A DNA stretch of 64,000 bases, taken from positions 1,482,258-1,546,257 of the forward strand of contig NW_011887293.1 in NCBI RefSeq assembly GCF_000151315.2. Direction: 5' to 3'. A model generated the notes under the pieces. The model was not told where the DNA came from and did no database searches. It saw nothing but the letters and a program-made list of their open reading frames with translations. The DNA comes from Capsaspora owczarzaki ATCC 30864. Taxonomy: Eukaryota; Opisthokonta; Filasterea. Within the stretch, counting starts at the first letter, position 1. The number at the start of each line of letters is the position of its first letter. The translations under genes and the position numbers were made by a program. This document shows positions 7,651-61,668 of the stretch, piece by piece.

Positions 7651-9359
7651 ATGGCCGAAGTTGAAGTTGACGCGACTGCTGCTGCCGATCAGCAGCAACA
7701 AGACACCACTGCTGCGGCTACTGCGACTGCTGATGCCCCGACTGCTGCGGAGGAGCAACAGCCGCGTGGCGCCAAGCGCCCTGCCGAGGACGATGCCGAG
7801 CAGCAGGACGACGAGGCAACGGTGAGTTTGAGGTGCTCACCAATGGTGGATCAACGGGGTTTTCCCCGATGTATTTGGGATGGTGATGATGTGGTTGCAA
7901 TGAGAACTCGGAGGCAAAGGGTTGAAGGGGACAACAGGGGATGGGTGAAGGAGCGAGCTGTATGAGCCATCATTGGGGCTAGACCTGCTGCTGCTGCTGC
8001 ATGGAGATCAAGGGGGTCGATCAAACGACAGGGCAGTAGACGCAGCGTGTTGATCGGACTATCTGATACATGCGCAACCCCTTCAACGCGAGATCGCAGT
8101 GAACGTACAATGCGTGGCTCAATGCAACTGGCTCAAATGCAAATGGATCCACATGGATTGTTGGGTTGCTGTTTCCCCGTCCAAAGTTGCGACTCGTGGA
8201 ACAAGAGTCAAGCAAAACTGAGATCACTTGTTGCTGATGCAAGCATGCCAAAGGCAGCTCCAGTGCGGGGGGTTTGGGGAGGGGGGACAGAGACGCGGGA
8301 AGGGGAGGTTGGTGACTGAGAAAGCGCTGTCAATGTGCTCTCTGTCTCTCTCTGCCTCTCTGTCTCTTCTGCTGGGTGTGTGTGTGTGTGTGATTCTCAG
8401 ATTGAGAAGCATTCGACGATTCGTGTTGGATGAAGAAGGGAAAACAACACAGCTGAAACAGCCAGTGTCGTTGTGCTTCACTGCGCTTCCTACAAAGCTT
8501 TCTCATTCATCTCCTCTCATCTCATCTCATCTCGATCTGCGCTCGCGGAGTCAACAGATGACCTAGTTGAAAGTGTCCACCACGCTTGGACTCGTTGGTC
8601 GGGGAACTTGACTGATCTTCATTTTGTTGTGCACATACATTCAAACAACAGACCAAATCGCCCAAGAAGACCCCCGCCAAGCGTGGCCGCAAGCGACGCG
8701 CAGTCGCCAAGGGTGAAGACGAAGAGGATGACGACGCCGCGTACGACGAGCAGCCTGAAGAGAAGGAGCCCGAGCAGACACCTCCCCCATCTCTGCGCCC
8801 GCGACGCACGTCGAGCCTGCGCGCCACCGAGCGCACCGCCAAGATCATGGCCCGAGAGCACCGCCAAAAGGACGACGACGAGGTCAACTCGGACGACGAC
8901 GATATTGACAAGAGCTCCCTCCCTCGCCGCGCTGCTGCCAGCCCGCGTGGCGGCGGTCGTGGCCGTGGTGGCCGAGGAGGTCGCCGCAAGGCTGCCCCTG
9001 CAGCCGAAGAGCAAGCCGAAGAAGCTGCAGCTGACGAGGACACCGCCACCGAGTCGCAAGACGCCGCGGCTCCCATGGACACCACTGAGGACAAGCCCGA
9101 GGCTGCTGCCGCTGTTGCTGCTGCTGCTGAGCCTGAGACTGCTGCTGCTGCTGAGCCTGAGACTGCTGCTGCTGCTGCTGAGCCTGAGACTGTTGCTGCT
9201 GAGACTGTTGCTGCTGAGCCTGAGGCTGCCGAGCCCAAGGCTGAGACTGCCGAGCCCAAGGCTGCCGAGCCTGAGACTGCCGAGCCCGCCGCTGACAAGT
9301 CCACCGAGTCCACCGAGTCCACCGAAACTGCGGCTGCTCCTGCCTCAGCCTCGGAATAA
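7651..9359 (+). CDS. Charged Ala/Glu/Pro-rich nuclear-type protein
   Basis: Two exons, 7651-7821 and 8652-9359, join in phase 0 (donor GTGAGT, acceptor AAACAACAG) to give 292 residues; the intron of 830 bases is the longest one clearly resolved. Start is the first true ATG, encoding MAEVEVD. The protein is disordered: Ala/Thr/Gln-rich start, a strongly basic nuclear-localisation-like PKKTPAKRGRKRR at about residues 60-75, acidic clusters, a Gly/Arg patch (RGGGRGRGGRGG) resembling an AT-hook or RGG box, then a degenerate AEPET-type repeat of about 70 residues. This looks like a chromatin or RNA-binding accessory protein, but I recognise no family. Its stop lies only 100 bases from the end of the convergent FANCG-like gene. 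Confidence 0.75.
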
Positions 9360-9459: not shown

Positions 9460-12400
9460 CTATGACGGCGACGCCTGCAACAGCGCGAGCTGTGTATCGG
9501 TGACGCTCGGTTGAATTCGGCATGAGCGGGCGACAAGCGGGGTGCGCGCTACCGACACATCCATCGCTGTTTGCTGCACGACAATGTGTTGACGCTGCTG
9601 GCGACCAAGCTTCCAGCGTCGCAATGCATCGCGTCCTTGTGACTGCGTACCGAGCAGCAAGACCAGCAATGTTGCGTTATAAGCAACGGTTTCGTCGCCT
9701 TGAAAGGGAGAGGTGGGACATTGCGCAGAGGAGAGAAAGAGTGAGAAAGAAAAATGCCAAGATGAGATTCAATCTGTCAGGATGTGCATAGGAAATCCTT
9801 CGTGCTTACGCGAAACGAGGCTTGTTGCACGATTGGCTGCTTCTTGAGCCTCGGAAACCCGCCGTGCGAGTAATAGAAGCACAATCCTGTTGTTCAAAAG
9901 CACCGTCTGAACCAACACCGTAATCAGCCAGAGTCGCAATCACCTATTGATCAGACCGCAAGGGACTTACTCGCATGGGATTGTTTGCATCGCATGCACC
10001 GAGCCCTGAATCTACGGCAGCCAGGGCATCGGGAAACTGGCGCAAGCGGGCGAGCGCCTCTGCACGCACGCTCCAGCGCCACGGCGAATTCTGGATTGGT
10101 GCCGAGTCGAGCACTGCTAGACATTCTTCTGGTTGGTTCCCATTCAGCAACGCATGGGACATCTCTTCGACAAGCTGATTTTCTTCAATCTAAATGACCA
10201 AATACCAACAAACCAGTCCACTCGGTGAGCTACAACATCGAGCTTCGCCATCCGCACTTTTCTTTTCGGTACTCTACTCTACCTCAGCTGCAACATTGGC
10301 ATCACGTGCGCGCCGATACTCAATCACAGCCGAGCTCCAGCGTTGCTGGCGAACAAGACATCTCGCAAGCCAGAGATGCAAAATCGCGCCGGAAAGCACC
10401 TTGGGCGAGTCGGTGTGAAACTGCACCATCATCGCCCCGAAAGGAGTTTGCGAAATCCACAGCGCATGGATTGGGTGAGCATCACGCCATTGGCGGGCTT
10501 CGTGATTGGTTATAGCCTTTCGCAGAGCCTCTTCGGCACTAGATGCATCTCCTTGAGCGAGCCAAGTCATTGCCAAGTTGTACAGTGCCACACATTGCAG
10601 ATTAGCATCCCCTAGACCCAAAGCCTGTTGAAAGCTGATGGCTGCTTGCTCGTATTTGCTCTAGTTTGCAAAAAACCAAAGTCAAACACACATGGTCAAG
10701 ACCAAACTGGTTGAAACGAATACACAAATCAAGCGCAAGGGGCTTGGGTCGCCGTACCCGATTGAATTCGACGCATCCAAGCAGCATGCTCTGAATCACA
10801 GGGAGGGGGTTGAAACAACCGACTCCTTCGCGAAGAAGCGTTTCGGCCTGAGCCCAATTCTTGGCTTCGATCGCACGACACACTTCGATGGCAAGAATCA
10901 GACGTTGTTGTCAGTAACGCCGCGCGCTCAGCGAGAAAGCCAACGAAAACAATCATCAAAAAGAGAAAGACGAGGCGCGCACATACCCCTCATTGAATAA
11001 ACAGACAGAAGAGGTGAATCAAGGCGCGACATTGCACCCAGCGCCCAATCAGCTTGCCGTGCGAACCGATCACGACCCGACCACGCGAACGCAGTTTGCT
11101 GTGGCAAGAAGTTTTCTGCCTGTTGCGTGGCTGCAATTGCATAAAGAACTGAAGCGCTCGAAGCGAGCTCGTGCTCGGGTCGAAAGGCTGCAGCAAAGCC
11201 TCCACTCGCCAGAAAGTGAACGGGGAAACTTTGTCCAGAGGTCACGAGAGCGCGTTGGGTCAAACTGGTCGCAAGGGCTTCGAGCATTGAGAACGTCATC
11301 TGCTGGAATTCGGCCGTGGTGGTGCCCGCACGAGGAACACCCAGTGCCATGGATGTGGTTGACATTCGCTCATTGAATGCCGCAGGACAGGTCGGCGGAT
11401 GAACCAGACACAGCATCCCCAGTAGAGCAGTGGCTTGGTAAACAAGGTCGGCCATGTCTCGATGCTGATGCGCCAAACGCAGGACGGCCTGAACGCGGAA
11501 GGCACACAGCTCTTGAATTTGCAGCGTCACGTCGCCCCCAACCACCGCAGCCGAAAATCCGAGATTGCGCTCAAGTCGCTCCTCTTCTGGAGTTGCGTCG
11601 GGATGGAGCACGTGGGCCAGACGAAGCAGCTGTCGCCAGGCTTGAACGACCGAATGAGCTGCCGACATGACGCGCGTTTCCTGCTGCACGGCCTCGGAAC
11701 TTCCCCCCGCCAGATGCGGTCCTGCCCAAGACTGCAAGCACCAGAGCACATGCAAGATGTAGACACTGGCTGCAATTTGCAGAGACCGCGGAGCTGGCGG
11801 GATTCCTGCAACAACAAAAAACCGAGAAAGAAAGAAAAAAAAAACGAGAAACCCCAAAATGATCGCATTCGGGGTCGTGAGTAGACGCAATCACTATCAG
11901 AAAACACTGAAATACGACCATCGCTATGATATAAGCCGTGCTACTTGCCATGCAGCAGAGTGGCAAGAGCGTGAAATTCGCTGCGGTCTTGCTGAAGCGA
12001 CTTTCGGGTTGGCGTCGTTGTCGACGGTGCGTTCCAGCGAGTGGCCTATGCGTCATCCAAAATCCAGATCCATCGGCGAGGCATTCAATGAGCCATGCAA
12101 GTTTTGCAGATGACAGCAGTGATCCGACCCGGACAAATCTCAGATTTTAACTCGCATGCTTCGCAGAGGATTCTTACCAAACGATCGGCGAGCGCATTGT
12201 GCATGGCCACCAACTGGAGGTCTTGCGACGACAGCTTCAGATCGCTCCAGTCGAGGTAGTTTTGTGCGACTCGACGCTCGGTGTGCTGCGATGACGGGCT
12301 CTCGTCAGTCTCAGTAGAATCGACTTGGCCGGCGACAAACTTGGCCAGCGATCGAGCGTCTGCAGCCCAGCCCTGCACCAAACCACCACGAAATGCCCAA

Positions 12401-12664
12401 ACGCATCAGCCAAGCAACCAACGCAGAAGCCCCCCAGATGCGGCCGAGTGAGTGAGCGGTGAGAAAATTTGGCGGGAAAAACACAGCGCTCGTTGTTGCA
12501 TGAAACAACTGACTGACTTGTATGATTAACGACGACGTGCGCGCGGTGTGGCTGGCCTCGAGCCGGGCGATGGCGTCCTCGAAGGCGTCCCACTGACCGA
12601 GACGCACTGCGTTGAGAGCGCGGAGGCGAAGCGGCTGCAGGCGAGCGAGCTCGCTTGAATCCAT
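9460..12664 (-). CDS. FANCG: FANCG-like TPR protein (Fanconi anaemia core complex)
   Basis: FANCG (XRCC9) is a TPR scaffold of the nuclear Fanconi core complex that helps monoubiquitinate FANCD2-FANCI at interstrand crosslinks. Nine exons (12518-12664, 12178-12372, 11949-11991, 10987-11805, 10758-10882, 10283-10660, 9971-10189, 9810-9906, 9460-9698) give 753 residues; every junction keeps frame. Helical TPR pairs follow human FANCG from end to end: LATLLHGIPPAPRSLQ where human has a LLHSLQGLPAA segment, FRVQAVLRLAHQHRDMADL for its GLQAALWLSADRLGDL segment, the NWAQAETLLREGVGCFNPLP block for its NPDKALSSLHEA block, and a C-terminal RDALRRWKLGRQQ. Human FANCG is 622 residues. Identity is low, so a generic TPR protein is the alternative. 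Exon 3 uses a GC donor. Confidence 0.6.
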
Positions 12665-12967
12665 TGGAAACCCGAAACAACCGACAAACAAAAGTGAATC
12701 ACTGCAACTTCTCAGAGACTGAGACTGCCTTATTTTGATGGTGAGTATGTATCACATTAGAGCTTTGAACGATAGAATGCACGTAGCTGTACTTCCACTT
12801 TCATTCGCTCGATATTCTGGTCGAACGCTCCGTTTTTCACTGATTTTTCACTGCATCTGACAAATCTCAGACATTCAAAGTCAAATGGCGCGACTTCAAT
12901 TTTATCCGATTGTTGAATTCTCAGTCGCCCTTTTTTTTTTTTTTTCTCTCCTTCCTTTGAGCACAAA
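12665..12967. promoter_or_regulatory. Shared divergent promoter, FANCG-like / USP39
   Basis: A 303-base gap separates the two start codons on opposite strands, so both promoters must lie inside it. It has a T run at 12931-12945, about 20 bases before the USP39 start. No TATA box or known operator is evident. Confidence 0.5.
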
Positions 12968-15727
12968 ATGCAAGTGACGGACGACGGCGGCGATCGTTCA
13001 GCCAACGACGACCATGGCGGCAATGCAACTCCAGCCAAATCCAGCTCCAATGCAACTCCAGCGAATTCGTCGTTTTCTTCCTCTTCTTCTTCCTCTTTCT
13101 CTTCGTCCGCTGCCACCGCTGCAGCTGATCGCAAACCTGCCAAACACGATGCCGACGACGACGACGACGATGACGATGACTGCTCGATGCTGGCGGCGGC
13201 GCGGCGGCACACGCGGCAGCAGCTCAAGGCTGATCAGAACGCGCTCGGCTCGTCGTGCCCGTACCTCGACACGGTCGATCGCTCGCAGCTCGATTTCGAC
13301 TTTGAGAAGGTCTGCTCAGTGTCCCTGAGCGATTTCAACATTTACGCCTGTCTGATCTGCGGCAAGTACTTTCAAGGTAAGCTTCCAATCCAATGCGGCA
13401 CCAACAGTGATCCCGCTTTCGCTTGGCTTGCTTCGCTTCGACTGGAACCGGATCTCGAATGCTTCAGAGCTTGATGCTGACATGAGGATGGCATTGTTTG
13501 GGTTTGAAAACAAAAAACGCAGGTCGCGGAGTGCAGTCGCATGCGCATACGCACAGTTTGGAATCGGATCATCGCGTTTACATCAACCTGTCAACTCTCA
13601 AGGTGCGATTTGGACGTGTGCCATTCAGAGGCATCGGTTCTTGCAGTTGGATGATGCTCGTGCAAATGGTTGGACTTTTGGCTCCTGTCCAATCGTTCCA
13701 ATTTTGACTTTGTTTGGTTTTTGGGTTTTGGGTTTTGCTGTTAGGTGTACTGTTTGCCTGACAACTACGAAGTCATCGATCCATCACTCAACGACATTCG
13801 TGCTGTCATTCGGCCGACGTTCACTCCTGCAGCGATTCAGCAGCTCGATACAGTCTCTCGCCAGTCGGTCGGCCTTGACGGTGTGCTGTATTTGCCAGGT
13901 AAGATTCGCTGTGACTCGAGCTTTGTGACCTTGCAGTAGCAGCAAATGCTGATAAGCAAGTGCCTCGCATCTCATTCCCCTTCTGCCTCCATTGTAACAC
14001 CTTTTTAGGCGTGGTCGGTTTGAATAACATCATCCACAACGACTACATGAACGTTATCATCCAGATGCTCAACCGCATCCAGCCTCTGCGCGATTTCTTG
14101 TTAAGCTCGCAAGCCGACGAAGCCTGCAAAACGCCTTTGAGTAAGAGGCGGTGTCCAGCTTTGTTCTTGCTTTTTTCCCCACGCTGTCCTCGTTGATTTT
14201 GGCCTCACTCTTGTTCTCGTCTTGCAACTTGCAGCCTCTGCCGCTTCAGAGCTTTTCCGCAAGATCTGGAATCCGCGAAACTTCAAAGGGCATGTCAGTC
14301 CGCACGTTATGCTTCAGGTAAGCGCCATTCCAGCAGCCAACGCTGTTGCCCTTCGCCAATGCCTAACATTGTGTGTGTGTGCGCGCAGTCCATTGCTTCC
14401 GCCAGTTCCAAACGCTTCACTCTGGCGCAGCAAGCAGACCCTTCAGACCTTCTGTCGTGGCTGCTCAACACATTCCATACCGATCTCGGAGGAACTCGTC
14501 GCAGTGGTTCCAGTAAGTTGAAGAGTTGGTTTACTGTGAATTCAACACTCACTATTCACTCATTGATCGACAGGTATCATTCATAAAATCTTCCAAGGAT
14601 CTATGAAAATGATTTCTCGGAAAATGCCTGCCGTGGTTGATGAAGAAGAAGCATCAGAGGAACCAGGTATGAAACCCCCATTTCCATTTCCCGTCTGTCT
14701 GGCTCGTCTTTGCTAACAGCTGACTTTTGTCATTTGCTTTGGTTGTGGCGTCAGCCGTTCACGCCGCAAAGCGCGCTCGTTTGGAAGAAGATGTCGCTGA
14801 GGACGAATATGAAGGTAACATTTTCGGGTCTCTATGGCCTGTGTCAGCTTCGCTTTGGACTCAGCTGTATTCTTTTGCACGTCTAGACAAAGTTTCGGAA
14901 TCGCCATTCATGTTTCTGTCGCTTGACCTGCCACCGGCACCCCTGTTCAAGGACGAGACTGGCAAAAACTTCATTCCTCAGGTGCCGTTTTTGTTTTTGT
15001 CCATTCGATGGTCATCGTCTGTAGTTGAGGGTTTGCTTACTTTTTTTGTGTGTGTGGTCGTACAGGTGCCGATTACCACGCTGCTCGACAAGTTCGATGG
15101 CGTGACCGAAAAGGTAACCAACGGATTTTGGTGGTTGCGACTTGTGACGACATTAATTTGAGCACCGAGCTCACCTCCAACCCCCTTGCTTGTGTGACTC
15201 GATTCCCTAAACCGATAGGAGTACAAAACTGGCCGAGACCTTTTCATGAAGCGCTTCATTTTGACCTCCCTTCCGCAGTATCTGATCTTGGTGGTTCGTC
15301 GATTTACCAAGAACAACTTCTTCCTCGAGAAGAACGCAACCATTGTCAACTTCCCTCTGCGCGGTTTAGACATGCGTGATTGTATGTGATGCATTCAGCT
15401 TCGCAGTTGCATGTTTGTGCTTGACGTCTCTCGTCGTCTGACTAACCTTCTCATCCTGTTGTTCCTGCGGTAGATGTGGAGAATGCAGCTGCCGTTGGCA
15501 GCACGACATACGACCTCGTTGCCAACATTTACCATGATGGGTCGCTTGAAGCAGGCCAGGGGACGTATCACGCACATGTGCTCCACAAGGCGACCAAGTC
15601 ATGGTACTTGATGCAAGACTTGCACGTCAACCAGATCCTGCCTCAGCTGATCGTCTTGGCGGAGGCGTACATTCTCGTGTACGAGCGCCGCAATACTGCG
15701 ACCAGCTCTTCGAACATGCAGGCGTGA
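12968..15727 (+). CDS. USP39: U4/U6.U5 tri-snRNP-associated protein 2 (USP39/Sad1)
   Basis: USP39 is a spliceosomal protein needed for tri-snRNP addition; it has a ubiquitin-protease fold but no activity. Twelve exons: 12968-13376, 13523-13602, 13745-13898, 14009-14140, 14235-14317, 14389-14512, 14574-14666, 14755-14814, 14887-14981, 15066-15113, 15219-15381, 15474-15727. They total 564 residues (human 565). After a Ser/Asp-rich leader, the zinc-finger UBP begins CPYLDTVDRSQLDFDFEKV with the CLICGKYFQG motif. The protease-like domain begins VGLNNIIHNDYMN, in which Asp takes the place of the catalytic Cys of active USPs, as in all USP39. Later stretches WNPRNFKGHVSP, RFTKNNFF and TTYDLVANIYHDG also match. 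The internal acidic loop is shorter than in humans. The identification is secure. Confidence 0.96.
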
Positions 15728-61595: not shown

Positions 61596-61668
61596 GCTCC
61601 CATAGCTCAATTGGCAGAGCGCGACACTAGTAATGTCGAGGTAGCGTGTTCGATTCACGCTGGGTGCA
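61596..61668 (+). tRNA. tRNA-Thr (anticodon AGT)
   Basis: A 73-base cloverleaf with no intron. The acceptor stem is GCTCCCA with TGGGTGC (one T-T mismatch at pair 3), the D arm GCTC/GAGC with loop AATTGGCA, and the anticodon stem CGACA/TGTCG with loop CTAGTAA, so the anticodon is AGT. The variable loop is AGGTA, the T arm GCGTG/CACGC with loop TTCGATT, and the discriminator A. The internal promoters are intact (A box TAGCTCAATTGG, B box GTTCGATTC). The anticodon A would be edited to inosine and read ACU, ACC and ACA. A T7 terminator follows within seven bases. Confidence 0.93.

Follow-up and report, generated by a model that had tools for sequence, protein, structure and literature searches.

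A nine-exon TPR gene in Capsaspora owczarzaki

The window analyzed here is a stretch of 64,000 nucleotides from contig NW_011887293.1 of Capsaspora owczarzaki ATCC 30864, in which a nine-exon gene runs on the minus strand from its start codon at 12664 to the end of its stop codon at 9460. The gene model was read from genomic DNA. Joining the exons reproduces the start, the stop and the nine in-frame exons given in a preliminary description of this DNA and revises the length given there, 753 residues; the spliced open reading frame comprises 771 codons plus a stop, and the frame is kept at every junction. The introns are 64-145 bp long and seven of the eight are GT-AG. The third (window 11806-11948) is GC-AG and keeps the frame; its donor, GCAAGT, was set prior to any comparison with human introns, and an adjacent GT donor was rejected because exon 4 would then enter a stop-containing frame. 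The exons, and the introns discussed below, are arranged as follows.

12518..12664, minus strand: exon 1, residues 1-49; extends beyond the N-terminus of human FANCG
12178..12372, minus strand: exon 2, residues 50-114
11949..12045, minus strand: exon 3, residues 115-147; 97 bp, entered in phase 0 and left in phase 1; putative equivalent of human FANCG exon 2
11806..11948, minus strand: intron 3, GC-AG; interrupts Gly147 in phase 1; matched to intron 2 of human FANCG
10987..11805, minus strand: exon 4, residues 147-420; N-terminal region; contains FRVQAVLRLAHQHRDMADL
10883..10986, minus strand: intron 4, interrupts Val420 in phase 1; matched to intron 5 of human FANCG
10758..10882, minus strand: exon 5, residues 420-461; 125 bp; putative equivalent of human FANCG exon 6
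10661..10757, minus strand: intron 5, follows residue 461 in phase 0; matched to intron 6 of human FANCG
10283..10660, minus strand: exon 6, residues 462-587; TPRs
9971..10189, minus strand: exon 7, residues 588-660
9810..9906, minus strand: exon 8, residues 661-693
9699..9809, minus strand: intron 8, phase 1 in Arg693; weak pairing with human FANCG intron 12
9460..9698, minus strand: exon 9, residues 693-771, then the stop codon; contains RDALRRWKLGRQQ

A codon-usage score derived from the longest frames in four mutually overlapping stretches of the FANCD2 locus in the same genome gives the called frame the best score of the six frames in seven of the nine exons, the exceptions being exons 5 and 8. 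Pfam reports TPR_2 and TPR_1 above cut-off at approximately residues 454-582 of the product, which bears out its earlier designation as a TPR protein. The structure predicted for exon 4 alone is helical but of low confidence, with a mean pLDDT of 43.4 in this single-exon model.

Approximately 300 bp upstream of the gene (window 12665-12967) a reading frame begins on the opposite strand, an arrangement in which a promoter may be shared. This frame precedes a ubiquitin-hydrolase (UCH) domain at 13915-14194, and the neighbor that carries this domain presumably resembles USP39. A low-complexity Ala/Glu/Pro-rich frame ends approximately 100 bp downstream of the stop codon, and imperfect tandem repeats with units of 3-27 bp lie inside it at 9102-9286. 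The window's sole Rfam match at gathering threshold, and its sole ARAGORN match, is a tRNA-Thr (anticodon agt) at 61596-61668.

Sequence comparison with FANCG

Human FANCG, in the same way as the Capsaspora protein, matches only generic TPR in Pfam, and Pfam is therefore unable to decide a FANCG identity. A phmmer search of the protein against the PDB listed 18 sequences up to E 10, with no FANCG, APC subunit, PEX5 or SEL1 among them; nearly all carry names of designed or consensus TPR proteins and match at approximately residues 454-512, the best being the designed consensus TPR protein 8bu0 (E 6.4e-05, residues 454-512), while one is Rap105 (E 0.65). The N-terminal 419 and C-terminal 264 residues, searched separately against the PDB, returned nothing up to E 10. 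Pairwise comparisons with human FANCG by phmmer, hhalign and BLASTP were null (best BLASTP E 1.0), and human FANCG searched against the Capsaspora genome gave no match; as a test of homology these comparisons are weak, being made with a single FANCG sequence and no FANCG profile.

The two proteins were aligned under four matrix and gap settings, locally and globally, with shuffles, reversal and rotation as controls. Measured against shuffles, the alignment z ranges from -0.5 to 2.9 and varies with the settings and with preservation of the hydrophobic pattern; against class-preserving shuffles, which keep that pattern, it falls to 2.1 or less. The best value (2.9) lies inside the range of bacterial TPR decoys, since in three settings where the z with FANCG is approximately 2.1, 2.1 and 0.2 a set of 34 bacterial TPR frames aligned with the Capsaspora protein reaches 3.75, 3.91 and 6.68. 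Rotated FANCG attained the true alignment score in 0 of 100 cases in five of the eight settings and in 2, 25 and 29 of 100 in the other three; the alignment controls are mixed overall, with PAM250 counting against FANCG. A FANCG identity is unsupported on sequence alone.

The preliminary description had drawn the name from sequence blocks, which it saw in the same order as in human FANCG over the full length. The blocks themselves are present, with FRVQAVLRLAHQHRDMADL at residues 249-267, NPLP at residues 444-447 and RDALRRWKLGRQQ at residues 715-727. The proposed order is borne out only in part: placed accordingly, the FRVQ block ranks 6,890 of 454,812 placements (top 1.5%) and RDALRRWKLGRQQ 10,619 of 462,990 (2.3%), each has a higher-scoring site elsewhere in FANCG, and neighboring registers gave mostly lower scores. 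The pair NPLPVIQSM/CPRPVLVQV fares better, with 956 equally good placements (fraction 0.002), and an additional block picked in the present analysis does best of all, with 173 (fraction 0.0004).

Concordance of intron positions and phases

Of the 13 exon ends of human FANCG used here, those at c.175, 777, 924, 1143, 1636 and 1760 are presumed positions. We take human intron 2 to lie in phase 1 in Gly59, at the end (c.175) of a 91-bp exon 2 that runs from phase 0 to phase 1; intron 6 presumably lies at c.777/778, with an exon 6 of 131 bp, and intron 12 at c.1636/1637. All 13 ends are compatible with an exon-final G (chance approximately 2e-05). The ends at c.84/85, 307, 511, 1077, 1433 and 1480 appear in published splice variants (PMC5511800, PMC3388349, PMC8877758), and c.646/647, the site of the phase 1 intron 5, is consistent, on our own reading of the frame, with the exon 5 skipping outcome p.S171Vfs5* in the last of these (PMC8877758). 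No printed positions of human introns 2, 6 and 12 were found in the literature searched.

Several blocks were aligned by eye first, and the intron positions were then seen to coincide. To make the comparison objective, the local similarity at each of the 40 same-phase intron pairs was ranked against that at every other pair of positions; the sizes of the scoring windows and the matrices were chosen by the analyst, and the best intron p-values need caution for this reason. Query intron 3 with human intron 2 falls in the top 0.004-0.12% of position pairs in all nine settings; the pairing of query intron 5 and human intron 6 ranks within the top 0.016-4.5%. The best in-order chain pairs query introns 3, 4 and 5 with human introns 2, 5 and 6 at half-widths of 15, 20 and 25 (W15, W20 and W25), and gains query intron 8 with human intron 12 at half-widths of 20 and 25. 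Three sets of 4000 controls were compared with this chain, in which the human introns were moved, the query introns were moved, or the query introns were moved in a codon-aware manner; its score was reached by 23, 0 and 0 of these, respectively, at W20, by 38, 8 and 11 at W25, and by 65, 26 and 22 at W15. At W10 query intron 5 pairs with a different human intron and the chain is weaker (198, 82 and 79 per 4000). Bacterial TPR segments put in the place of FANCG (70 segments, 19 frames) never reached the chain score in any of three settings, and class-preserving shuffles of FANCG did so in 0, 2 and 10 of 154 cases for W20, W25 and W15.

An anchored gapped comparison of the junctions gives the pairing of intron 3 with human intron 2 a score of 46, which exceeds all 22,586 random junctions (maximum 44), and leaves the pairings of introns 4 and 8 outside the top ten. 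Exon 3 and human exon 2, of 97 and 91 bp, align, with gaps, at 12 identical positions across 31 human residues, a similarity equaled by 0 of 1000 shuffles and 17 of 1000 class-preserving shuffles; for exon 5 and human exon 6 (125 and 131 bp) the corresponding counts are 10 and 59. The remaining four of the six intron-bounded blocks do not rise above shuffles (621, 55, 267 and 296 per 1000), and the sum over all blocks is equaled by 1 of 1000 shuffles and 34 of 1000 class-preserving shuffles. A free alignment given a bonus for introns does not attain significance: in the five settings with an intron match, 23-54 of 400 controls do as well. It finds only the intron 3 match, the sixth setting matching none; we read this as unwillingness of such an alignment to pay for the long gaps of the chain, which requires a further 116 residues between the paired introns 3 and 4. 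Off-chain pairs also score in single settings (query intron 1 with human intron 7 at 0.9%, query intron 2 with human intron 9 at 0.7%), and the out-of-order pair of query intron 6 and human intron 1 stands at 2.7% in the anchored gapped test. Query introns 1, 6 and 7 are without a human partner, and between intron 2 and human intron 1 there is an offset of two residues.

The pairing of query intron 3 and human intron 2, together with the preceding exon, is the strongest item in this comparison, followed by query intron 5 with human intron 6; the pairings of introns 4 and 8 are weak. Gene structure, in the sense of intron positions and phases, is common to the Capsaspora gene and human FANCG, with the presumed ends c.175 and c.777 carrying most of the signal. 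The intron positions constitute independent support for FANCG, and the match rests on them more than on sequence. The FANCG name is probably right in light of this concordance, whereas the sequence blocks from which it was originally derived are not significant.

Pathway context and a proposed scaffold role

The Capsaspora genome, searched as 27.46 Mb in 29 contigs, contains both FANCL and FANCD2. The FANCL_C domain scores 103.3 bits, above cut-off, at C3:2318044-2318238, and the FANCD2 gene extends over C3:1121158-1126580, where FancD2 scores 319.4 bits, above cut-off, in the best of eight segments; both genes lie on contig C3. Further FANCL_C matches on C1 (22 bits) and C5 (19.7 bits) are below cut-off and were taken as other RING proteins. 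FANCE is probably present, as judged from a candidate on contig C8 (1136090-1136347, minus strand) that scores 23.0 bits as a single exon against a Pfam cut-off of 22.2, and falls below cut-off both in the genome search (19.1 bits) and as three joined exons (18.1 bits). Reading frames on the same strand adjoin the candidate exon.

The preliminary description had pointed to FANCA in the same genome as a check; three Pfam models and a provisional human FANCA sequence gave nothing credible in an exon-by-exon genome search made without a eukaryotic positive control. A FANCA match at C10:703585 (15.1 bits, below cut-off, 36 model positions) was set aside, no FANCA context being recognized in the translated locus. 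FANCC, FANCF and FAAP100 were likewise not detected exon by exon, and given the nature of the search and its lack of a eukaryotic positive control these four non-detections do not show absence; apart from these four proteins the search covered FANCL, FANCD2 and FANCE. This pathway context, with FANCD2, FANCL and probably FANCE, fits a FANCG in the same genome.

The main rival explanation is that the gene encodes an unrelated or distant TPR scaffold with a generic TPR likeness to FANCG, the intron matches being coincidences recognized after the fact. Direct sequence tests that are all null or in the decoy range, PDB matches that are at best designed TPRs over residues 454-512, and the non-significant intron-bonus alignment speak for this explanation, and it gains from the variation of windows and matrices by the analyst and from the provisional status of two key human ends. 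Against it, the intron chain, the junction tests and the two intron-bounded exons beat most or all controls in most settings, and we consider it unlikely, though a serious competitor. Less probable still, to the point of being doubtful, is the reading that the protein belongs, in diverged form, to some other named TPR family for which Pfam has no dedicated model, such as the TRAPPC12 or APC7 type, the two other families compared directly. On visual inspection the C-terminal TPRs look similar to those of several TPR families, and in single-sequence phmmer comparisons with the Capsaspora protein a provisional APC7 sequence stands above FANCG (2.5 versus -1.6 bits); both scores are insignificant, however, a similarly provisional fragment of TRAPPC12 gave no reported match, Pfam shows no specific family, and neither an APC subunit nor PEX5 nor SEL1 appears in the PDB search. 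A profile search had been proposed at the outset for separating FANCG from the other TPR families, and the searches pointed in neither direction: no FANCG hit emerged, and no other named TPR family won. A mis-assembled gene model, in which a shorter real gene has wrongly joined exons, would be compatible with any of these explanations and could account for the codon usage of exons 5 and 8 in a model read from genomic DNA alone, but is very improbable given that all nine exons join in frame, with AG acceptors throughout and with seven GT donors and one GC donor.

The gene model, its TPRs, the intron concordance and the presence of FANCL and FANCD2 in the genome are shown by the analysis, and from them we infer orthology, a scaffold role and every protein contact. 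The gene is a candidate for a highly diverged FANCG ortholog, whose product would serve the Fanconi core ligase as a TPR scaffold, and we regard this identification as likely. In vertebrates FANCG stands between FANCA-FAAP20 and the modules FANCC-FANCE-FANCF and FANCB-FANCL-FAAP100, an arrangement documented in part in a published account (PMC10085685). We propose that the Capsaspora protein would be an alpha-helical, TPR-rich scaffold of the core ubiquitin ligase, whose helical N-terminal half and C-terminal TPR superhelix may hold other core subunits and so let FANCL with its E2 monoubiquitinate FANCD2-FANCI at DNA interstrand crosslinks.

Earlier publications place most core proteins at the origin of animals or vertebrates and report fungi without FANCG (PMC2730050, PMC11061109); one of them describes the Fanconi pathway as fragmentary in basal opisthokonts, including Capsaspora, and as relatively complete in sponges (PMC11061109). 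Among the literature searched, as far as its text was available, FANCG is mentioned together with Capsaspora only in PMC11061109, and together with a choanoflagellate only in PMC11061109 and PMC2730050; the former's figure of the distribution in selected eukaryotes lay outside the literature search, and priority for a FANCG here is thus not established. On balance we favor the view that FANCG, the chromatin-targeting scaffold of the core ligase, predates animals and survives in a single-celled eukaryote beside FANCL, FANCD2, a FANCE candidate and possibly a FANCA too diverged for detection. Its absence elsewhere would then reflect loss or failed detection. If the identification is true, the origin of the FANCG scaffold would move earlier and is likely older than animals, Capsaspora would offer a minimal system for studying the core ligase, and the case would demonstrate that orthologs with sequences decayed beyond detection can be revealed by conserved introns.

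Set beside known systems, the Capsaspora protein finds its best PDB match in designed consensus TPR proteins (8bu0 and others), a generic TPR likeness that is uninformative on family. It differs from human FANCG (XRCC9; PDB 7kzp chain G) in its length of 771 rather than 622 residues, with approximately 85 more at the N-terminus and 116 more between paired introns 3 and 4, and in the lack of both a significant sequence match and a detected counterpart of the vertebrate partner FANCA. The two proteins are alike in being TPR-rich and in being seen by Pfam as generic TPR only; their genes have three to four in-order, same-phase introns in common, along with two intron-bounded exons of similar length, and the pathway partners of human FANCG, FANCL and FANCD2, are both encoded in the Capsaspora genome.
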